Below, piece by piece: positions 1 through 9,777 of a DNA stretch of 64,000 nt. Source of the stretch: an uncultured Bacteroidia bacterium (GTDB lineage: Bacteria; Bacteroidota; Bacteroidia; Bacteroidales; UBA932); assembly GCA_902801205.1 (NCBI GenBank), contig CADCHE010000004.1:58695-122694 (forward strand). The letters are read 5' to 3'. Each line of letters begins with the position of its first letter. Within the stretch, counting starts at the first letter, position 1. Below the pieces are notes generated by a model. The model was not told where the DNA came from. It made no database searches and was given only the letters and a program-made list of their open reading frames with translations. The position numbers were made by a program, and so were the translations under genes.

Positions 1-674
1 ACCGCCGTCACTCCTTTTTGCGAATCTGCCGCACAAAGGCAACTGAGGTGCGTCATGAGCTGCTCCGCATCCAACCCTTGAAACAAAGGATAAGAACGGA
101 CGATTTGGCCCTTGGCATCTGAATGATGGAACACGAACTCATTGTTTTGCTTATCCATCGAAAAAAAAGAAGTTACGGATGAAGGAACCCATAAGACAGT
201 GTTGTCCGGAATCCCCTTCCAGGATAATGGTTCATCACTGTCCGGCAGAGACAAAGCACTGGCATCAATCGAGCAAAACCGCCCCATCATGATGTCATAG
301 ACATGCATGCAAACAGCACCAGGAGACGCCTTTGCGATACGGGGACTGAGCATCTCGGAGGGGCCACGCCCTTTTTTAATAAAAGATCCGAGATAACGGC
401 CGCACTCCAGGGAATAGGCCTTGAACCAACTCGAATCACCGGCGGAGCCTATGTCTTGAACGACCAGAATGGAATCTCTCACAATCTGCAGATCAAGGAA
501 ATGTCCAACTTCCCCGAAAAAGCCGGAGAAGGACGTGTCTTTCTCAATATGTGCCGCATGCCTTGCCTTCACCATTTCCACAGGGACATCCTGGAAAATG
601 CCGTTCCTGGAACAGGAAACAGCAGAGGCGGTCAGCATGAAGAGAAGCAGAATAAAGTAAAACCGGCGCATCAT
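1..674 (-). CDS. 6-bladed beta-propeller (TolB-like) lipoprotein, C-terminus cut by window edge
   Basis: Partial gene running off the left end. Two adjacent ATG codons start it; about 224 residues are visible. The N-terminus is a lipoprotein signal (basic MMRRF, hydrophobic core, lipobox AVSC with Cys21). Around residues 90-105 it carries GSFIKKGRGPSEM, matching the GxGPxE signature that recurs in the neighbouring paralogs and is typical of Bacteroidales 6-bladed beta-propeller/TolB-like lipoproteins. It is the last visible member of a leftward operon, 53 bases after the previous stop. The family is secreted and anchored to a membrane; its ligand is unknown. Function beyond fold is not inferable here. 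Confidence 0.75.
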   Translation of the reverse strand, partial: MMRRFYFILLLFMLTASAVSCSRNGIFQDVPVEMVKARHAAHIEKDTSFSGFFGEVGHFLDLQIVRDSILVVQDIGSAGDSSWFKAYSLECGRYLGSFIKKGRGPSEMLSPRIAKASPGAVCMHVYDIMMGRFCSIDASALSLPDSDEPLSWKGIPDNTVLWVPSSVTSFFSMDKQNNEFVFHHSDAKGQIVRSYPLFQGLDAEQLMTHLSCLCAADSQKGVTA

Positions 675-727
675 TGTGTATTATTATTTATTTCTTAGCC
701 CCTAGAGGGAGTGGATGGAGCAGTTCA

Positions 728-1756
728 TCAGGAAGGAAGGTCCCATCGGCATAGTTCCCATGAAGCGCCGTCAGATCCAGGCTTCATCCGTATGAAATAG
801 ATTCCGCCACGGTAGACCGCAAAGAGTTCCGGAGTCGTCAGGTCTTTCCACATGTAGTGCCAGGTGGAGGACAGCTTCCCGGACTGGAGTTTGTATAGGG
901 AATAGTATTTCCCGCCGGCGCCGTTGTTCTCCTTCACGGCGCCTTCCTGCGTCAGCACCCAGATCGTCCGCCCTTTCTTCATGACGAGCAAGGTGGAAGG
1001 GGTCGTATTCAGGAACTTCAGCAATTTCTGGATATCCCCATTGAAAGACGTCTCCATCGGATCGCAGGAGAAAGTAGGAGACTGGAAAACGGCGGACTTC
1101 TCCGGACGGCCCCGATCCGCAGGCACTTCATATACCGTCAGCGCATCCTTGGGCATGAATACGAAACGGCCTTTGTCAGAAAGGGACATTGCACCACGCC
1201 CCAAGGCACTAGTCAACATGTAATGCGCTTCCGAAGATTGTACAAGCGTATCAAGGACGGTTCCGTTGTTCCCATCAAGCAAATCGATGACATTTCCGTG
1301 ACGACGACCGGCGGTATATACCGCAAGGACCTGATCCGACAGCGGGAGAAAGTCGTATACGGCAGAAGGATATTTGAATGCCAGGCGAGGGGTTCCTGCC
1401 GCGTCATAAGAGATGAACTTCTGCGAGTCACTGCACCAGAGATAGAGATTCCCCTCTCCGTCTGCCCGGACCAATGTCGGCGTGACATACTCATACAACG
1501 CACGTCCGCTTTTGTTCAGGCATTGCTTCTGCGCACCTGCCATGGAATACGTATAGATATTCGAGTTCCCGTTCGAAATCAGGACGAAGGACGAATCATC
1601 ACAAAGGTCGAACGAAGTGACTCTCCCCAGCAGCCCCAAGTTTTCCTGCAATGTGCAGATCGGCGTGACATCCGGTGTACTGACCACAAAACCCGAATGC
1701 TGTTTACATCCAGCTAGGATGAAGACAAAAAGGACGAGAAGATAATATTGTCTCAT
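728..1756 (-). CDS. 6-bladed beta-propeller (TolB-like) lipoprotein
   Basis: 342 residues. I chose the internal ATG giving MRQYYLL because it leads directly into a signal peptide with lipobox LAGC (Cys17); the longer open frame upstream reads into the coding end of the preceding gene. The body is rich in short beta-strand-like segments, and around residue 100 LNKSGRALYEYVTP replaces the more usual GxGPxEY signature, so this is a divergent member. It is preceded by only 13 bases, so it is co-transcribed with the paralogs on either side. Predicted exported, membrane-anchored beta-propeller of unknown ligand. Confidence 0.7.
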   Translation of the reverse strand: MRQYYLLVLFVFILAGCKQHSGFVVSTPDVTPICTLQENLGLLGRVTSFDLCDDSSFVLISNGNSNIYTYSMAGAQKQCLNKSGRALYEYVTPTLVRADGEGNLYLWCSDSQKFISYDAAGTPRLAFKYPSAVYDFLPLSDQVLAVYTAGRRHGNVIDLLDGNNGTVLDTLVQSSEAHYMLTSALGRGAMSLSDKGRFVFMPKDALTVYEVPADRGRPEKSAVFQSPTFSCDPMETSFNGDIQKLLKFLNTTPSTLLVMKKGRTIWVLTQEGAVKENNGAGGKYYSLYKLQSGKLSSTWHYMWKDLTTPELFAVYRGGIYFIRMKPGSDGASWELCRWDLPS

Positions 1757-1769
1757 TCTCAGCCAACGA

Positions 1770-2900
1770 TTAATTGAACTCCAAGGAAGAAAGATATGGC
1801 GCAATAGGATATCTGTACACGGCACCTTCCGAAGCCTCTCGGACATACAGGTCCCCATGGACCATGTCAATGTCGAAAGAGGTGGCATTCACTGATAATT
1901 TCAACTCAAGCCGCGGGAAGCCGTTCCAGTCGAAAAAATGAATCGACGGCATCGGCATCCGGCCAGATTCGATTTCCATTTCCGTCGCCCCCTGATAAAG
2001 CGCAGCAAAAAAAGAATCATACGATCTTGTAACCAAGTATTCCAGACGCCTGTTTCCTAAATTCTGAGGCTTGAATGTCGTCTCGACATCGCGGATCGAG
2101 GATATTTTCGGTCCATAATATGAAGTGCTCATTACCTTTCCGGAAGGAGACACATCATAGACATGGACCGTATTGAGCACATACGACGTCTCAGCAATGC
2201 GGTGCAAGCCGGGATGATAGGCCGGGTTCGTCAGCAACACATTGAAATCGAACCCGGTATTTGCCTCATACACGCGGGAAGCATTCAAATATTCCATCGG
2301 AGTCGGGCAGAATCGATTCCCATCATCAATCAAGAAACGAAGCATTTGGGTTTGATCATCCGACCGTTGGATTCCCATGAACAATGAGGAAGAAAGAGGG
2401 ATCATGATCAGCCCATTATCGCTGTCAGTAATCTTCTCTTCGGATAGGATAACCGGATATGCAGATCTGAAGGATGCATCCAGATCAAGCGTTAGCGCCG
2501 TACCGCGGCCTTTCAGATATAAGATACCTTTCATGATGCCATCTTCCTTCATACAGAACAGCTCATGCGGCTGGAAAAGGTATTCCCCCGGGCCATTCCC
2601 CTTTTTCATGAACTGCCCCAGTTTCGTACAAGATGGAAGGGTGAAGGCTGCAATGGCACCCTGCGGATCCGGAGAGAAGACGAAAAGAACCGAATCAAAA
2701 ACCTGGATATAAGAGACTGCCGGCAAATGCAAGTCGACGATTTCCGGGCTATTCAGTGAAAAGGAAGTCGGAAAGGATTTGAACCCGTAGGTATTCGGAA
2801 GAGCACATTGATCTTTCGTGTCACCGTGCCCGCAACTTGCAAGCATAATCACAGCGATCGCAGCGACTTCCGCTAAAAAAACAATCTTTTTTGTTTTCAC
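1770..2900 (-). CDS. 6-bladed beta-propeller (TolB-like) lipoprotein
   Basis: 376 residues with a GTG start followed by a basic MKTKK stretch, a hydrophobic core and lipobox LASC (Cys23). The signature FMKKGNGPGEYLFQP (around residues 95-110) is a close match to the beta-propeller family motif GxGPxEY. The remainder shows alternating hydrophobic strands, and the C-terminus ends in a YRYPIAPYL-type last blade strand. It sits between two paralogs in a tight leftward operon. Known family members are Bacteroidales-specific secreted lipoproteins with no assigned ligand. Confidence 0.75.
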   Translation of the reverse strand: MKTKKIVFLAEVAAIAVIMLASCGHGDTKDQCALPNTYGFKSFPTSFSLNSPEIVDLHLPAVSYIQVFDSVLFVFSPDPQGAIAAFTLPSCTKLGQFMKKGNGPGEYLFQPHELFCMKEDGIMKGILYLKGRGTALTLDLDASFRSAYPVILSEEKITDSDNGLIMIPLSSSLFMGIQRSDDQTQMLRFLIDDGNRFCPTPMEYLNASRVYEANTGFDFNVLLTNPAYHPGLHRIAETSYVLNTVHVYDVSPSGKVMSTSYYGPKISSIRDVETTFKPQNLGNRRLEYLVTRSYDSFFAALYQGATEMEIESGRMPMPSIHFFDWNGFPRLELKLSVNATSFDIDMVHGDLYVREASEGAVYRYPIAPYLSSLEFN

Positions 2901-2936
2901 GGTTTGAATAAATTAAGCAGGAAACAATAGTCTATT

Positions 2937-4019
2937 TTACAAACGAAGCATCAGGACATAGTCGGTGTGGTCAAGGTCCGGGCAAAAAGCCCGCAGTTGC
3001 GGGACATCCATACCGGACGGAAGGAAGAAGGCCATCATATTGTTATCGCAATAAATCAGGGTCATCTGCCCAAAGACATCGCCGGGTAGATACAGAATCT
3101 CCTTTTCCCGATCCGCAAGGAAGAATGAGAGGGCCGTCCGGTCAAACAGTTTCCCGCCAGCCTTCCCTTTTGTAATGAAAACCGGAGCGCAAGCGCAGCG
3201 GTATCGGGCCAGTTCTTCCGGATGCGAAGATATGGAAGCACGCAGGTCATCCGGGAAGCGGTACTTGCCGAAATCAAAGGCAAACTGTTTGACAATGCCG
3301 CCATTCCCGTCAAGAAGCGTCACACGATCATCGATAAAAACATTACTGGAATAGAAGGACGATCCGTCTGCAGGGTTGAAACTGCATGAGGACAAGATGC
3401 CGGCAGGGTCGAATGATTTCAGTCCGGGGACGGCGCCGTCTTTCTGAACAAAGCCGTCCGAATACGCCTGTAATTGGAACTGCCAATCATTACCGTCCGG
3501 ATAACGGAAAAACATGAACCCTCCGTCCCCCAGGCATTTGATATCGACGGGAGTGATCTTCTCCAACGGATGACTTCCGAGAAATGCATAGGTGGCACCA
3601 TCGTACTCGAGTACCTTTTTACTTCTTGCATCAAGGATCCATATTTTGCCGGAGGCATCCCGATCGAAACCGGACACTTGAAGATACTCGTTGTTCGCCC
3701 TGCCCAAACTGCCGACAGAAGCCAGCCCGCGACCATCCGTTCGGGAGACAGCAACGATCTTCTGCATGCGAATGTCTCGAAGCAGGATCTCGGAATCCGT
3801 GAATAACGCACGGTCAATCTGTCCCAAACGATACTGCCGCGAAGTATCGACACCGAGGGCGGAGACATCTGCGACGTGCTCGGAAAGGTATTCCGAAAAA
3901 GGACGCTCCTCAAAACCGGCGAAATCGATCTTTTCAACAGTTAGGGCCCCGCCAGTAGTTTTAACGCATGAAACCGACAGAGGAAGAGCAAGCAAAAGGG
4001 AAAGCAGACGATGTTTCAT
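2937..4019 (-). CDS. 6-bladed beta-propeller (TolB-like) lipoprotein
   Basis: 360 residues, ATG start, short lipoprotein signal with LSVSC (Cys18). The family signature appears as GSLGRANNEYLQVSGF, followed by KIWILDARSKKVLEYD, the typical strand-turn-strand of a propeller blade. It directly follows the TPR/HTH regulator gene with a 12-base gap, suggesting translational coupling. Likely an envelope-exposed beta-propeller; substrate unknown. It is diverged from its neighbours, so this is an old paralog rather than a recent duplicate. Confidence 0.75.
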   Translation of the reverse strand: MKHRLLSLLLALPLSVSCVKTTGGALTVEKIDFAGFEERPFSEYLSEHVADVSALGVDTSRQYRLGQIDRALFTDSEILLRDIRMQKIVAVSRTDGRGLASVGSLGRANNEYLQVSGFDRDASGKIWILDARSKKVLEYDGATYAFLGSHPLEKITPVDIKCLGDGGFMFFRYPDGNDWQFQLQAYSDGFVQKDGAVPGLKSFDPAGILSSCSFNPADGSSFYSSNVFIDDRVTLLDGNGGIVKQFAFDFGKYRFPDDLRASISSHPEELARYRCACAPVFITKGKAGGKLFDRTALSFFLADREKEILYLPGDVFGQMTLIYCDNNMMAFFLPSGMDVPQLRAFCPDLDHTDYVLMLRL

Positions 4020-4031
4020 GATGAGCGAAAA

Positions 4032-5690
4032 TCAGCGTTCGTTTCTATCCAGGATGGACAGGAAATCGTTATGATGGATTGAAGAAGATTCCTTTATCTT
4101 GCGGCGAAGCCGCGAAAGACGTGTATAGAAAACCGGTCGGTCCACGTGCAGGATGGAACAGATCGACGGCGTGCTTAACCCCGAGGCCGACAGCACAAAC
4201 AACGAAAAATCCGATTCGGACAAATCCGGTATTTCTGCTCGCAAGTGAGACAAGATGGATTGCCGGGAAGCATCGACATACGTTTCGAATTCAGCACGAA
4301 ACGAGGGATCCTCGTAGAAATCGGCAATGGACTGGAGGAAAGCGGATATGACCATCCGGTTATTTTTCCCGCTGGACGTATAATAAGCATCACATAATCG
4401 CTCAAAAGAGCGGGCTCCCACTTTAAACGCCGCGCCGATCTGCGTCTTTGAAGCACGGTTCAGTTCATCGATCAACAGATGATAATCAGACTTTTCCTGC
4501 TCCCACTGTTTCCTTTCGAAAAGAAAACGTCTCACACGCCGGATCAAAAAGAACAGTGCAACAATCACCGCAACGCCGGCAAACCAGGCGACAGTCCGCG
4601 ATCGGCGGATCCGCTGCTGCTCCTGAGCCAATTGAAGCTCCGTGTACGATGCCATTGTCCGCACGGCAGACTGTTTGATGGTTTCGCGGACCTGTCTGAA
4701 AAGCGAATCAAGTATCTGGTCCATCATGCGGTAGGCACGCAAAGTGTCGCCCTTCAGCTTCGTCACTTCATAATCAGATGCATAAACATAGTTGAATTGT
4801 CGCCGCGATGAAACAGAACGATATGCGGAATCCAACAATTGAGAAACGGGCGAATTGCGATCCATTTTCGTTGAGATCAAAGCCAGGTCAGCATACTCTT
4901 CCGGAGTATAGGATCCGCGGAGGGCACGGATTTCCTTTAACCGCAGCATGGCGCTGTCCAACGATGGCGGAGTCCGCAGGGAAAAAGCAAGGACAGAGGA
5001 GGAGAGCGACTGTGTCAACAGGTTTGTATCACAAAGCGAGCGCGCCATTGAAATAACAGTATCCGCCGTATGCAGGGAGCCCGCATAATCCTGCAGGTTA
5101 TACCGTCCGCACTGCGCTTCATAGAGGGCGAAAGCCGCATGCAAGTCCTTTCCTGCCTTCCGGAAAAAATGACAGGCCAATTCCGAATACTTTACTTGAT
5201 CGGGATAGTCATGGGTGGCATAAAAAATCTCTGCGAGTTCCCGGCAGGCCATCCCCGCATAGAAATCGTCTCCTCGCCGTATGGCCAGTTGATACGTCTC
5301 CATGAAACGCGGGACTGCCGCCAGGTCGTCTCCGGCATCTTTCAGCTGGTCAGCGTAGTAATAAGCGGAAAGTTCCTTCTTTTCCGGAGCACCATGGTAC
5401 CGATAATATTTCCAGACGGCTTGCGCTCCGGAGAGGAACGAACCGTCATCCCTGTCGTTCTTGTCAAGCGCCATGGCGTACAGGAGTCCATAGGCTGCCC
5501 GGATACCACGCGAGCCCAAGCGTAGGGTATCGATCTCCTCCAGCACCGACAGAGCGCTGTCCGGTCTTTCCTGGATATATGTCGAAACATCCCGAATCGT
5601 ACGCCGCACATCAGAGGGTGAACAGGCGGCCAGAAACGCGGAAAGGACGATTGCAGAAAGCAGCAAAAAGCTCCGGGGTTTCATATCCAT
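4032..5690 (-). CDS. Membrane-tethered regulator: lipoprotein-like signal, TPR sensor, one TM helix, HTH output
   Basis: 552 residues. Visible in order: signal with lipobox LAAC (Cys23); helical TPR-like repeats at about 28-345 (for example residues 33-55 and 104-180); one transmembrane helix at about 367-383 followed by RRVRR as a positive-inside anchor; a coiled linker at about 392-415; and a C-terminal helical domain with a likely helix-turn-helix at about 491-533 (LSESDFSLFVL, then TPSICSILHVDR and FYTRLSRLRRKIK). This architecture is known in Bacteroidales as a periplasmic TPR sensor fused through one membrane pass to a DNA-binding domain. Placed in the middle of the beta-propeller operon, it is the natural candidate for the regulator of the cluster. 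The target is inferred, not shown. Confidence 0.75.
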   Translation of the reverse strand: MDMKPRSFLLLSAIVLSAFLAACSPSDVRRTIRDVSTYIQERPDSALSVLEEIDTLRLGSRGIRAAYGLLYAMALDKNDRDDGSFLSGAQAVWKYYRYHGAPEKKELSAYYYADQLKDAGDDLAAVPRFMETYQLAIRRGDDFYAGMACRELAEIFYATHDYPDQVKYSELACHFFRKAGKDLHAAFALYEAQCGRYNLQDYAGSLHTADTVISMARSLCDTNLLTQSLSSSVLAFSLRTPPSLDSAMLRLKEIRALRGSYTPEEYADLALISTKMDRNSPVSQLLDSAYRSVSSRRQFNYVYASDYEVTKLKGDTLRAYRMMDQILDSLFRQVRETIKQSAVRTMASYTELQLAQEQQRIRRSRTVAWFAGVAVIVALFFLIRRVRRFLFERKQWEQEKSDYHLLIDELNRASKTQIGAAFKVGARSFERLCDAYYTSSGKNNRMVISAFLQSIADFYEDPSFRAEFETYVDASRQSILSHLRAEIPDLSESDFSLFVLSASGLSTPSICSILHVDRPVFYTRLSRLRRKIKESSSIHHNDFLSILDRNER

Positions 5691-5727
5691 AAAACGAGCA
5701 TGATCGTTTTTTATGGGCTAACAATAA

Positions 5728-6837
5728 TCATGGCATCGACTTGTACCAAATCTTGTCCGAGATGGGATCGATGAAAAAAAGGCGCCGCCCCTTCTTGTCA
5801 TACGTAATCGAATACGCCGTTTCACTCATAGCATACTTTTGCAGCAGGTTCCCGTCCCAGTCAAAAACAAACAGTTTACGAGCCCCCACAGAAGTCTCCG
5901 AACGTGAAGACCCTGAGAAAAGAGCATAAACGCGGTCATCCGAGCATGTCACCGAGCGGAAACAGCAAAACTGTTTTTTCCAATTGGACTCGTTTTCTCC
6001 ATGGAGATACATCGCCCGTGCATGGAGATCTTTATCAATGATCATGATCTGAGGGAAATACCACATGGCCAAAAAGAGTTTTTCATGCTTGTCGCTGAAA
6101 CAGGCGACCGATGAGAAAACACCTTTTCGCGTGGCAAAATCCTCACTGAAACGTCTTGTATCAATCACTCGAAAAAGAGGCAACGGCTCAACGGCGGATT
6201 TTTCCGGGTCATAAGACAAAACCGCCGGAGATGCTGTCATTTCTTCGGAAGACGGATTCATTCCGGAATCCAGAAGCAATAAGCGACCGTCTTTCAAAAG
6301 ACTGAATGACATCAAACCGGACGCATTGTCCGAAAAAGAAGATCTGAGGTCCAGAACTTTCGAAAAGACCGTTCGGTGGGATTGAACCGATGCTGTGACA
6401 TCCCACAAGAACAATCTCCTGGTACTGTAATCCCAAAGGAGACACTCGTCCTGATCAGATGAGCCTTTCGCCATGTAGGGTTTCGGGTAACATGAAACAA
6501 GGTCCTCCGGCCCCCGGCCACGATATACAAAGCCGCCGCAATCCATTCCGGTATTCACCGATGCCACCTGAGCGAAATGCTTTGATCCGCTCCCATTGTT
6601 GAACGAGACGAAGAAAGAGTCGATGACCACCGATTCAGGCATCACGCCAAATGACGGAATGGTATGCCATTCTTCCAACGATAACGCTTCTTCTTTCAAG
6701 CTGGAAACCTCTTCTACTTTTATCAAAGAAGATTCCCAGCTCAAATGGCCCGTCCCGGGCCGGCAAGCAACCAGGAAGACACAAAACAAAAGGCAAGAGC
6801 AGAAGGGAAGGCGCATGGTCAGTTTTATTAAATCCAT
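5728..6837 (-). CDS. 6-bladed beta-propeller (TolB-like) lipoprotein, paralog of the gene at 8.3-9.4 kb
   Basis: Up to 369 residues; a second ATG seven codons in (start at 6816) gives a more compact lipoprotein signal ending FLVAC and may be the true start. The signature reads FVYRGRGPEDLVSCYP, followed by LLWDYSTRRLFLWDVTAS. The C-terminus RRLFFIDPISDKIWYKSMP closely resembles RLFFFNPQLEKVWYRDMQ of the gene at 8274-9368, so these two form a subfamily distinct from the other members. It is separated by 35 bases (56 if the later ATG is used) from the upstream paralog and by 37 bases from the downstream regulator gene. Exported lipoprotein of unknown ligand. Confidence 0.75.
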   Translation of the reverse strand: MDLIKLTMRLPFCSCLLFCVFLVACRPGTGHLSWESSLIKVEEVSSLKEEALSLEEWHTIPSFGVMPESVVIDSFFVSFNNGSGSKHFAQVASVNTGMDCGGFVYRGRGPEDLVSCYPKPYMAKGSSDQDECLLWDYSTRRLFLWDVTASVQSHRTVFSKVLDLRSSFSDNASGLMSFSLLKDGRLLLLDSGMNPSSEEMTASPAVLSYDPEKSAVEPLPLFRVIDTRRFSEDFATRKGVFSSVACFSDKHEKLFLAMWYFPQIMIIDKDLHARAMYLHGENESNWKKQFCCFRSVTCSDDRVYALFSGSSRSETSVGARKLFVFDWDGNLLQKYAMSETAYSITYDKKGRRLFFIDPISDKIWYKSMP

Positions 6838-6872
6838 CTCAAAAATACAAATTATTCCGAAAAAAAGCCGTA

Positions 6873-8003
6873 CTATTTGAAATCAATCTGGACGACAGAA
6901 GGGTTGGCGGGGAGGGCAGAAGGACGAACCGGCATTCCGGGAGCAGAAGCGTCTATCAGGCAGTAAACAGTTTCCCCCGCGACAGCAACGGGACGGGAAA
7001 GCGCCCATACGACATAGCTATCTTTATCGAGAAGAGGGCGCCCACCAGGAGACAAGCCTGAAAAGGAATATCCTGCCAGAAACGACTTCACCTCTCCGGT
7101 TCCGAGATTCCGAACCGACAGAAGAGACTGTCCTTTCGATGACGTGACAAGCCCTTCATACTTTGGCGTTCTCCAGTAATCGCCCGTAAAATAGGAATAA
7201 CCGCGTAACGGATACATACGCAACAATGTGTTGAAGTCTCCCTTTGATTGCCGCTCGAAGTCTGAAGGGAGCATGCTTCCATCAAAGACAAGGGCTGTTT
7301 TTCCGGACAGCTTCCCATCGAGGTTATAATACTCGATTTCCGGGCGCAAGGATTTATGATACACTGCTCCGCAATCGAACGTGGACAGACAGAAATGTGC
7401 AGTATAATTCATTGTGTATGAATGACGTGACAAGCCCTGAAGGAAACGCCCGTCTTCATCGAACAGGGACAGGTCATAGCCTTTCGTACGACTGGACGAG
7501 GAATCGCCGTTCACGCCGATGAACCGGGACGATCCCAAAAGCGCCACTTCCGTAACAGGAATATCCATTTTCACATCGGACAAATACCGCCCATCAATCG
7601 TATAGAGCAAGAGTCGCCTCATGAAATGATCCAAGACAAATACAGAGTCCCCTCTGACTGCAATATCATAAGGAACGGTATACTCCGAAGGACCGCGGCC
7701 GCATCTTCCGATCAGGTTCATGAAACGTCCTGTCGAGTCAAAAGCATACACTTGTTTGCGAATACGCCGGTCGAGAATCACAAAAGAGCCTGCCCTGCTC
7801 CGGCAGATCTTATCGGAAGAACCAATCAAGGATGCATCATCCGTGGCTTCCAAAGGGATGGTTCGTACCGATTGGACAACGGAGCGGATTTCATTCGCAC
7901 CATGGATCTTACCGTCCATTTGCACAGTCGCCACATCCGTGTTTTCATGGGCGCAGGAGCACAACAAGGATACGAAAGTGGCGAAGAGGAATCTTTTACA
8001 CAT
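6873..8003 (-). CDS. 6-bladed beta-propeller lipoprotein, first gene of the left-hand operon
   Basis: 376 residues, ATG start, lipoprotein signal ending LLCSC (Cys17). This is the most canonical member: NLIGRCGRGPSEYTVPYDIA followed by VRGDSVFVLDHFMRRLLLY is the textbook blade signature of Bacteroidales 6-bladed beta-propeller proteins. It is the first gene after the 118-bp promoter repeat (predicted transcription start near 8041, leader about 38 bases). Downstream genes follow with short gaps, so it probably heads a leftward operon of at least seven genes. Confidence 0.8.
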   Translation of the reverse strand: MCKRFLFATFVSLLCSCAHENTDVATVQMDGKIHGANEIRSVVQSVRTIPLEATDDASLIGSSDKICRSRAGSFVILDRRIRKQVYAFDSTGRFMNLIGRCGRGPSEYTVPYDIAVRGDSVFVLDHFMRRLLLYTIDGRYLSDVKMDIPVTEVALLGSSRFIGVNGDSSSSRTKGYDLSLFDEDGRFLQGLSRHSYTMNYTAHFCLSTFDCGAVYHKSLRPEIEYYNLDGKLSGKTALVFDGSMLPSDFERQSKGDFNTLLRMYPLRGYSYFTGDYWRTPKYEGLVTSSKGQSLLSVRNLGTGEVKSFLAGYSFSGLSPGGRPLLDKDSYVVWALSRPVAVAGETVYCLIDASAPGMPVRPSALPANPSVVQIDFK

Positions 8004-8044
8004 AATATAACTCAGATACGGTGCGCAACGTAATTTGGTTTATT

Positions 8045-8162
8045 GCAAATATACGCACGATCCAAGCTTTTTGCAAAAAAAACGACCTTACAAAAGCGGA
8101 ACTAAATAATTGACAATCAGCGCATATTGCTAAAAATAACCTTACACAGGCAAAATTTCCCC
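8045..8162. repeat. 118-bp promoter/terminator repeat, copy 1
   Basis: Aligns without gaps to 9660-9777. By hand 98 of 118 positions are identical, with the outer thirds nearly perfect and the centre diverged. It contains the promoter boxes, two CCTTACA motifs 54 bases apart, and on its right edge one arm of the terminator hairpin that ends the upstream unit. Confidence 0.85.
8046..8077 (-). promoter_or_regulatory. Promoter for the seven-gene beta-propeller/regulator operon
   Basis: Read on the minus strand there is TTTG, 20 bases, then TATATTTG, a perfect match to the Bacteroidota promoter consensus. The start of transcription is expected near 8041. It lies inside the 118-bp repeat. Two CCTTACA motifs (plus strand 8086-8092 and 8140-8146) sit upstream of the -33 box at equal positions in both repeat copies and could be activator sites. 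Confidence 0.75.
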
Positions 8163-8187
8163 GGAGAGAATAATCGCTCCGGGGAAA
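8156..8187 (-). terminator. Rho-independent-type hairpin ending the NVEALA/beta-propeller unit
   Basis: A perfect 11-base stem (8156-8166 with 8177-8187) around a 10-base loop, followed on the minus strand by TTTT. It separates the right-hand unit from the promoter of the left-hand operon. Confidence 0.75.
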
Positions 8188-8273
8188 ACTTGCGCGAACG
8201 ATCTCCGCCTTCGGACTGAAAATGAAGAACCTGCAGCCCGGCTGTTCAATGGGAAGCGGGAACGCATAACAAA

Positions 8274-9368
8274 TCATTGCATATCTCTATACCATACCTT
8301 TTCCAATTGAGGATTAAAAAAAAACAACCTCTGGCTTGCTTTGTCAAAAGAAATGCTTTGGACATCTTCCTTCAGGCGATACTTGTTCAAGAGATCTCCG
8401 TCCCAACTGAACTCATATAGCACAGTAGCCTTGCAGGCGACCTCCTTTCTACGCTTTTCTCCCGAATACAGCGCATATATACGATCGTCACTGGCCGAAA
8501 CGGATTGAAAAGAACGGAATCCTTTCCTGGCAATGGAATGAGGCTGGCCTTGAATGACAATGGTATTCAACTCTTTTGTTTGTGTATTGACGAAGACGAT
8601 GGCGGGAAAACAAGTCATTGCCATGCAGAGAAAATGGGATGAAGGATGATAACAATCGCTCGAGTTGAATATAACCTTGGAAACGACGGGATTATCCTCA
8701 CATCGATAATTCACCGGACGGAAAACAGGGATAGAATCGCGAATGGTCATCGATACCGGATCGAATAACAAAACACGAGGAGGAGAAAGCATTTCCTCCG
8801 TAAAAGCATTTTGACCCGAATCATTGATAACAATCTCTCCCTCTTCCGTCTTGAAGAACGACATCAACGGAATCTGACGATTCAATGACGACTCTTTCTC
8901 GAGAATCGTTCTCCCGGATTCAAGGGAAGATGTAACATCCCAACGAAAAAAAGAGGTGGAAGAAAAATCGTATAGCAAAGCGTACGTTTTCCCTTGAAAA
9001 GGGTACACATCAATGAAAAAAGAACAACTCAAGAGTTCCGTGGGACCACGTCCCCTAAGGACGAAATCCCCAAAATCGGTCCCGCTTTTCCATGACGACA
9101 CGTTCCAAAAAGAATCGCTCCTTCTATATCCCACGTACGAGATAGCCAATGAATCATAAACAGAGTAGATTCTCTGGTCACCCCAATCCGGAAAAGAATC
9201 GAAGGGATGCCAATCAAGTTCTTGCTCGGGCAAATCGGGGACGACTTTTATGGGAGACAACACCCCCTCATACAATAGCGACGTGGGGCGGCAGGAAAAC
9301 AGTGCCGCGCACGTCAGAAAAGGCACCAAAAGATGTTTACTTCTTCGTACAATAAAAAGGGAGCGCAT
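8274..9368 (-). CDS. 6-bladed beta-propeller (TolB-like) lipoprotein downstream of the NVEALA-like peptide
   Basis: 364 residues from the ATG giving MRSLFIVRRSKH, which leads into a signal ending ALFSC (Cys26); a longer frame exists but its extra codons only add a second hydrophobic start. The signature is DFVLRGRGPTELLSC, then ALLYDFSSTSFFRWDVTSS. It is closest to the product at 5728-6837. It follows the small NVEALA-like ORF by 17 bases, a gene pairing common for this family in Bacteroidales. Anchored envelope protein, ligand unknown; the adjacent peptide is an obvious candidate to test. Confidence 0.8.
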   Translation of the reverse strand: MRSLFIVRRSKHLLVPFLTCAALFSCRPTSLLYEGVLSPIKVVPDLPEQELDWHPFDSFPDWGDQRIYSVYDSLAISYVGYRRSDSFWNVSSWKSGTDFGDFVLRGRGPTELLSCSFFIDVYPFQGKTYALLYDFSSTSFFRWDVTSSLESGRTILEKESSLNRQIPLMSFFKTEEGEIVINDSGQNAFTEEMLSPPRVLLFDPVSMTIRDSIPVFRPVNYRCEDNPVVSKVIFNSSDCYHPSSHFLCMAMTCFPAIVFVNTQTKELNTIVIQGQPHSIARKGFRSFQSVSASDDRIYALYSGEKRRKEVACKATVLYEFSWDGDLLNKYRLKEDVQSISFDKASQRLFFFNPQLEKVWYRDMQ

Positions 9369-9385
9369 TGTAAATAGTAGTATAA

Positions 9386-9604
9386 CTAAGAGGGACATTC
9401 ATAAATGACTTCCGGCGTTGTCCTGCCGTCACATTCAAGGCCGAACGTGGACTCTGCGCCAGTTAAGAACGCAGTATAGTAACATGGGGCGATGTTCGTA
9501 CCTTCCCCATCGGCCAAGGCGTCCAGATTCTGGAGCTGAATCACTACACTGAAACATAAAAAGGTACGTCTTAAATCAACCGAACCCGGTCGGCAACCGG
9601 TCAA
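9386..9604 (-). CDS. NVEALA-family-like small exported peptide (start uncertain, possibly degraded N-terminus)
   Basis: The frame contains QNLDALADGEG, which I read as a variant of the NVEALAdGE motif of the Bacteroidales NVEALA peptide family, followed by a 38-residue Cys-containing tail with three Cys (CYYTAF, LECDG, YECPS). That tail resembles the mature part of NVEALA proteins. The usual MKKK plus hydrophobic leader is not clear: no in-frame ATG exists, and the start must be TTG (9604) or GTG (9544, 52 residues). A hairpin (CCGGT/ACCGG, 9586-9600) covers the first codons after the TTG. It could be a functional gene with an unusual start or an N-terminally decayed one. It is the first gene after promoter repeat copy 2, and a beta-propeller lipoprotein gene follows. 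Confidence 0.5.
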   Translation of the reverse strand: MTGCRPGSVDLRRTFLCFSVVIQLQNLDALADGEGTNIAPCYYTAFLTGAESTFGLECDGRTTPEVIYECPS

Positions 9605-9659
9605 AAAAAGAAAAAAGCTTGGTTATATCTTGGCAGTCAAAAAAGTAAATCGCACAACC

Positions 9660-9777
9660 GCAAATATACGCACGATCCAAGTTTTTTGCAAAAAAAACAA
9701 CCTTACAAAAGAAACGCTAAATGATTGATTATCAATACATTTCTCCAAAAGGAGCCTTACACAGGCAAAATTTCCCC
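9660..9777. repeat. 118-bp promoter/terminator repeat, copy 2
   Basis: Same length and order as 8045-8162, about 83% identical by hand count. CCTTACA motifs lie at 9701-9707 and 9755-9761. The right edge again runs into a hairpin. Confidence 0.85.
9661..9692 (-). promoter_or_regulatory. Promoter of the NVEALA-like peptide / beta-propeller unit
   Basis: Minus-strand TTTG, 20 bases, TATATTTG, identical in layout to the copy at 8046-8077. Expected transcription start is near 9656, about 50 bases before the TTG of the small ORF. Confidence 0.75.

Follow-up and report, generated by a model that had tools for sequence, protein, structure and literature searches.

The genes described here form an array of β-propeller lipoproteins in an uncultured Bacteroidia bacterium (Bacteroidales, UBA932; assembly GCA_902801205.1), accompanied by a small peptide frame, a putative regulator and an efflux pump. 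The window, i.e. the whole stretch of 64,000 nucleotides that was analysed (G000:C4:58695-122694), holds part of this array at its left end, where the peptide, propeller and regulator genes all lie on the minus strand. Read from right to left, the order is peptide frame, p6, hairpin and promoter cassette, p5, p4, the tetratricopeptide repeat (TPR) protein with its transmembrane (TM) segment and helix-turn-helix (HTH)-like end, p3, p2, p1 and finally q6, a propeller that runs over the window edge:

1..674, minus strand: propeller lipoprotein q6, truncated by the window edge and continuing to -411 in L001; GRGPSE, lipobox-like AVSC
728..1756, minus strand: propeller lipoprotein p1; DUF5128 at 22.5 bits
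1770..2900, minus strand: propeller lipoprotein p2, GTG start; GNGPGE, 33% identity to q2, weak TolB_like match (15.5 bits)
2937..4019, minus strand: propeller lipoprotein p3; DUF5128 at 51.1 bits
4032..5690, minus strand: TPR-TM-HTH-like regulator of 552 aa with a lipobox-like cysteine 23
5728..6837, minus strand: propeller lipoprotein p4; TolB_like at 34.9 bits
6873..8003, minus strand: propeller lipoprotein p5, which opens the long unit; DUF5128 at 79.7 bits
8045..8162 (core 8046-8077), minus strand: promoter cassette of the long unit, a copy of a 118-nt repeat (83%); TTTG-N-TANNTTTG
8150..8193, minus strand: hairpin behind p6 (inverted repeat I8, 20-nt arms, 85%), a possible terminator
8274..9398, minus strand: propeller lipoprotein p6, adjoining the peptide frame; propeller in the AlphaFold2 model
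9386..9604, minus strand: NVEALA-like peptide frame of 72 codons with TTG start and a cysteine-containing tail; NVEALA at 13.7 bits
9660..9777 (core 9661-9692), minus strand: promoter cassette of the peptide-p6 unit, the second copy of the 118-nt repeat

The curated DUF5128 cut-off (PF17170, 22.9 bits) is passed by p3 and p5 and narrowly missed by p1, and the AlphaFold2 model of p6 has a β-propeller fold. No NCBIfam model reached its cut-off, DUF6377 (PF19904) stayed at 14.2 bits against a curated cut-off of 36.7 bits, and a sequence search of the PDB with the propeller alignment gave no match at 0.01; p5 alone retrieved NHL propellers (best E 1.5e-11). An earlier note on this DNA had described seven propellers sharing a GxGPxE signature. 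The seven are there, and the exact signature is found in four of them. The genes it listed are likewise present, but the window holds just part of the system: to its left, on the same strand, follow five further whole propellers (q1-q5), which bring the array to 12, and then a pump consisting of TolC, a membrane-fusion protein (MFP) and two permeases of the resistance-nodulation-division (RND) type in the order TolC-MFP-RND-RND. The earlier note makes no mention of this pump because it lies outside the window. TolC lies 31 bases behind q1, and all pump domains score above their cut-offs (ACR_tran permeases 521 and 374 bits, HlyD-type adaptor 43.7, OEP channel 113.8). The four DUF5128 matches of the genome all lie in this array, q1 and q3 among them. 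Between q2 and q1 stands a gene for an AAA_14/DUF4143-type ATPase (AAA_14 90 bits; L001:12258-13454, minus strand).

The link between pump and propellers was followed in 61 genomes (this one, 36 congeners and 24 from other families), taking a score above 600 bits as the mark of a close TolC relative. Another set of 79 named TolC loci comprises 54 linked to an RND operon, 24 linked to a MacB-type exporter and one that is unclassified (L178). Where at least 3 kb of upstream sequence is present, propellers occur in 40 of 44 RND-linked loci as opposed to none of 18 MacB-linked loci (Fisher 4e-12); regardless of upstream length the counts are 40/54 and 0/24. The RND-linked loci without a propeller are L143, L160, L163 and L170, and 123 of the 125 propellers of RND-linked loci share the strand of TolC. 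The TolC relatives belong to Candidatus Cryptobacteroides and other Bacteroidales/Bacteroidia, many of them from rumen and gut. Within the genus (37 genomes including this one), close TolC relatives occur in eight members; six of these have the RND operon, and all six are among the seven genomes with DUF5128 (overlap p 3e-6), the seventh being G011, which has no close TolC. The pump adjoins propellers in five of the six, and in G036 it lies on a 13.4-kb contig without a propeller. Several of the 79 loci are congener contigs, and the genus count and the locus count are not independent of one another. Pump genes stand together with propellers outside the family as well (L090, L216, L220, L222, L223), but 13 of 20 NVEALA stretches from relatives show no gene like those of this pump within the sequence covered. 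In total, these comparisons of gene content show that the pump goes with the propellers. Close TolC relatives (>600 bits) are linked to a MacB-type exporter in G021 and G026 (L082, L083, L085), which have no DUF5128 match and no propellers at these loci, and we regard this as a sister use of the same channel.

The second link is between propellers and peptides. At E 0.001 the NVEALA Pfam model (PF14055) is rare, matching in 4 of the 61 genomes and in 25 of 393 genomes of the order, and in the three congeners with a match (G012, G013, G036) the peptide lies near propeller genes. Of 24 frames with the NVEALA motif in the named loci, 21 end no more than 300 bases ahead of a propeller gene that shares their strand, and many overlap it. 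The motif ends in A-L-A, a possible cleavage site. From 86 raw peptide-propeller pairs, 70 in 44 locus groups were curated by hand; the 16 set aside comprise redoxin-like proteins, frames that fall on other genes, two spurious frames of this genome and the peptide-p6 pair of the window, which was reserved as a held-out check. Propellers below 250 aa and duplicate contig copies (L062, L066, L068, L098, L218, L219) were left out. A loose form of the motif is matched by 58 of the 70 coupled peptides, whose tails have a median length of 45 residues and hold an even number of cysteines in 50 of 70 cases (p 4e-4; 37 of 52 non-redundant tails, p 0.003). Two or more pairs are present in 18 loci, 17 of which carry different tail types. 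Propellers are also plentiful without recognisable peptides, since two genomes of other families (G057, G058) have 26 and 19 DUF5128 matches and no NVEALA match at E 0.001.

Similar tails go with similar propellers. For the 46 tails with a neighbor in another locus at a similarity of at least 0.2, the propeller of that neighbor is the nearest propeller in 35 cases and among the three nearest in all 46; without the threshold the values are 36/70 and 47/70. With leaders in place of tails they fall to 1/70 and 5/70, and in 500 shuffles the corresponding maxima were 6 and 9. In the 23 tail-similar pairs, propeller similarity has a median of 0.39 and a minimum of 0.10 over a background of 0.03, whereas the downstream genes have a median of 0.02 and a maximum of 0.07, and the upstream genes a median of 0.02, with 3 of 19 at 0.22 or above. 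Simple synteny is therefore ruled out as the cause, downstream genes being unlike and upstream genes alike in just those three cases. Leaders are more alike inside a locus than between loci (median 0.37 vs 0.19, p 7e-4); for tails and for propellers this difference is slight (p 0.02 each). From this and the tail-propeller match, the leader seems to go with the machinery of its locus, and the tail with its propeller. These comparisons show that a variable tail is inherited jointly with the propeller that follows it, as a single cassette, which the flanking genes mostly do not follow, and in all likelihood peptide and propeller are a cognate pair. A quite improbable alternative is that the propellers are general binding lipoproteins for vitamins, metals or glycans, with unrelated small proteins and a drug pump in the same variable region but no function in common. 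Propeller folds do serve many ligands, and BT1954, a surface lipoprotein of similar fold in Bacteroides thetaiotaomicron, is listed with a B12 transporter (8bn0, 8bmx); neither the sharp division of propellers between RND-linked and MacB-linked loci nor the cassette tests fit this alternative.

The frame in the window departs from the NVEALA family in score and leader. It reaches 13.7 bits (E 0.051) with NVEALA, below the curated cut-off of 27 bits, and at E 0.001 the model has no match in this genome. The signal-like leader before the motif is missing, the 15-residue hydropathy of 1.36 being the lowest of 71 (median of the other 70, 2.50), and because of this least hydrophobic leader and the TTG start the peptide may be decayed, with the leader probably the part affected; intact relatives occur in other genomes. 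In the held-out check its tail was nearest to L100 1616 (0.22), followed by L126 1622 (0.16) and L065 9702 (0.14), and for p6 the closest of the 70 propellers was that of L100 and the next that of L065 (similarity 0.15 and 0.12). Since tail and p6 point to the same foreign pairs, the frame very likely is, or was, a true peptide gene of this system, despite missing the cut-off. In the 34.7 kb of this locus examined for peptides and companion genes, no further frame was accepted as a peptide gene. Other propellers of the array resemble the partners of further tail types; the closest coupled propellers of q6, for example, stand behind RMKSCKDC-type tails. The genome of origin is in this sense rich in partners and poor in peptides, with 12 propellers, a pump and one decayed-looking frame.

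In the relatives four companion genes recur. A lipoprotein with a CxxC motif that is invariant in all seven aligned sequences occurs in 21 RND-linked loci and 14 of 20 NVEALA stretches, an S26 signal peptidase in 17 and 7, a Wzy_C-like protein in 20 and 9, and a transglutaminase-like protein in 14 and 7; each is found in 0/24 MacB-linked loci. Seeds for the S26 and transglutaminase-like models were kept separate in these counts. Three long proteins match both models (L065:4971-7502, L149:18636-21107, L120:6116-8680), and by their domain matches look like fusions of these two companions. In other families, the surroundings of NVEALA genes include S26 signal peptidases in L222 and L223 and O-antigen-ligase-like proteins in L216 and L222; large proteins there have a transglutaminase match in L222 and L223 and an F5/8 C match in L209, L210 and L220. 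None of the four genes was found in the 34.7-kb stretch. The genome of origin gave no match for the CxxC lipoprotein, in a search without a positive control, or for Wzy_C, a model that recognises two proteins from loci of this kind in relatives. Of the pump loci, 29 have propellers and at least 8 kb of upstream sequence; the CxxC lipoprotein is present in 18 of the 20 with a peptide as opposed to none of the nine without (p 5e-6), with coverage of the peptide-less loci ending about 10 kb beyond TolC. Peptides are associated, too, with S26 (p 0.04), with Wzy_C-like genes (p 0.014) and with transglutaminase-like genes (p 0.011). Peptide loci thus mostly carry the CxxC lipoprotein, and often the S26 peptidase and the Wzy_C-like protein. 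Five PDB matches of the CxxC lipoprotein by sequence, one of them a thioredoxin-signature protein, have E values of 0.37 or worse.

These companions bear on a model in which the propeller is a periplasmic escort or maturation factor: the peptide would cross the inner membrane by Sec and leave by RND-TolC, the CxxC lipoprotein would make its disulfides, the S26 peptidase would cut its leader, and the peptide would be used outside the cell. The association of peptides with all four companions fits this model, as do the even cysteine counts of the tails and the likeness of leaders within a locus, which would be expected if local machinery reads them. Pure escorts are hard to reconcile with the 90 propellers that face 33 curated coupled peptides in 31 loci, and with the 12:1 array in the present genome. 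We consider this model unlikely overall, with an escort or export role conceivable in producers.

The TPR-TM-HTH protein raises the question of signaling. Its AlphaFold2 model (predicted TM score, pTM, 0.59) has a signal helix, a TPR part at 26-338, a long helix at 342-438 and a helical C-terminus with helices at 492-534 in an HTH-like unit. A hydrophobic segment spans 366-383, and the lipobox-like Cys23 is invariant in 16/16 aligned sequences. Pfam finds TPR_2 in 10 of these 16 and sigma-70 region 4 in one; in the protein of the window the latter match is weak (13.3 bits). RRNPP sensors such as Rap and NprR have a cytoplasmic TPR part; here, because Cys23 is invariant before the TPR, and with the hydrophobic segment behind it, the TPR part is probably periplasmic. 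This genome has one regulator of the kind. The family is large, with matches in 29 of the 61 genomes and up to six per genome, and 23 of the 29 have no DUF5128 match. Since such a gene occurs in only 6 of the 44 pump loci, once on the other strand and once as a weak match, it is an optional part of the system. In the set of 29 pump loci the Wzy_C-like gene occurs in 0/6 loci with the regulator and 14/23 without (p 0.017).

Both units of the window are preceded by promoter cassettes, which the earlier note called near-identical and which form a 118-nt repeat in two copies with 83% identity; the 36-nt core occurs at these two sites only (at most three mismatches). What we take to be the general promoter motif of the host phylum has seven occurrences in the window. 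That the cassettes merely represent this motif is ruled out by the two copies of the repeat as opposed to seven motif sites, and a recent duplication of the units is ruled out by p4 and p6, which are identical in only 35% of residues. Aligned, each cassette shows TGTAAGG twice, about 54 bases apart and upstream of the core promoter, and these paired elements are a possible operator. In this genome, the TPR-TM-HTH protein probably modulates how the array is expressed.

In a signaling model, the exported peptide would be a pheromone, the propellers its cognate receptors or binders, orphan propellers would eavesdrop on neighbors, and the TPR-TM-HTH protein would relay the signal to DNA. The matching of peptides and propellers is consistent with it, the optional nature of the regulator argues against it, and we judge it rather improbable. 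Part of what the earlier note proposed in this direction held: the cassette tests and the held-out pair bear out that peptides and propellers belong together, the cassette tests and tail-similar pairs agree with its suggestion that different paralogs serve different peptide tails, and its three gene types do lie near each other in the congeners G013 and G036, with NVEALA matches that pass E 0.001 only and not the curated cut-off. The frame that it called NVEALA-like falls short of the family cut-off and lacks the usual leader; its tail and p6 match one cassette type. Its signaling circuit is partly supported: the peptide-propeller pairing is borne out, and the distribution of the tethered regulator across pump-linked loci and genomes does not support it as a core feature.

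Combining these data, we suggest a Bacteroidales system of small secreted cysteine-rich peptides with a conserved leader type and hypervariable tails, propellers matched to these tails and a dedicated TolC-MFP-RND-RND pump. Each propeller would bind its cognate tail, and propellers and pump together may protect the cell by capturing and expelling such peptides; producers might in addition use this pump for peptide export. We hold protection against cognate peptides to be a tentative reading, by analogy with known immunity systems, and prefer it to signaling on three grounds: a lipoprotein and a pump are the parts that stay constant, there are more partners than peptides, and loci in which no peptide is seen still keep pump and propellers (8 of 29 loci once L172, discussed below, is set aside). 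In its most far-reaching form the model would describe a new inter-bacterial system of the Bacteroidales, in which hypervariable disulfide peptides leave the cell by way of Sec and a dedicated RND-TolC pump, every peptide is neutralised or sensed by its own propeller, cassettes are swapped between species and partner-only arrays like the present one are a memory of the peptides of neighbors. In this full form it is possible, if on balance doubtful.

Several observations weigh against this interpretation. Crossover in the leader together with close linkage could move tail and propeller jointly without any binding. Across all 2381 comparisons the rank correlation amounts to no more than rho 0.07, with the partial value reached in 3 of 300 shuffles; a weak correlation is what mostly unrelated tails would give. 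The two foreign propellers ranked highest by p6 also come out on top for p4 and q4, at low similarity (0.09-0.15), and the held-out check therefore supports the subfamily and not p6 alone. Whereas many antimicrobial peptides are cationic, the tails are not, with a median net charge of -1. RND pumps as a rule transport small molecules, and one that is retained where peptides are absent could have a different substrate. About 1-2 kb beyond the end of L172 (G013), one of the nine peptide-less loci, L063 shows both a peptide and a CxxC lipoprotein; without this locus the association of the two has a p of 1e-5.

NVEALA peptides and DUF5128-type propellers have until now been named families without explanation. 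If the model is correct, gut and rumen Bacteroidales would have an additional peptide-based layer of competition or communication, and many propellers of unassigned function would acquire a class of ligand. The cassette result directly predicts which propeller should bind which peptide, perhaps also in B. thetaiotaomicron. Published tables for that organism list an O-antigen ligase family protein (BT0662), a 6-bladed β-propeller (BT0664) and TolC/MFP/RND proteins (BT0678-80), and by these descriptions the BT0662-BT0680 region may resemble the present module (PMC10434189). The open literature searched, 5.39 million papers, which excluded supplements and most subscription papers, contains no paper that names NVEALA, DUF5128, DUF4934, DUF4221 or DUF6377 and one that names BF3164; no function for DUF5128, TolB_like or DUF4221 propellers was found in it, and none of its papers joins Bacteroides, β-propeller, RND and secreted peptide.

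Compared with the NVEALA family (PF14055), the frame in the window shares a motif near N-V-E-A-L-A and a short tail, and differs in its lower score and in lacking the signal-like leader usual among the relatives, which have propeller neighbors in several families of the order. The propellers resemble the DUF5128, TolB_like and DUF4221 families (PF17170, PF15869, PF13970) in the matches of p3, p4 and p5 and in the fold of p6, and differ in being paired with peptide tails and a pump. In polymorphic toxin systems that include orphan immunity genes, a constant delivery part is combined with a variable tail, a matched downstream partner and surplus partners. The cassettes described here likewise have a conserved delivery part and a variable tail matched to a downstream partner, with partners in excess; their tails are short next to those large toxins, and no toxin domain is known for them. 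Self-protection against nisin relies on the lipoprotein NisI and the ATP-binding cassette (ABC) transporter NisFEG. The present system would share with it (PMC4828448, PMC4234265) the combination of a peptide-binding lipoprotein with a transporter; here a propeller takes the place of NisI, RND-TolC that of the LanFEG-type ABC transporter, and the host is Gram-negative, while toxicity is known for nisin only. The mode of action suggested for propellers and pump resembles that of known peptide-immunity systems.

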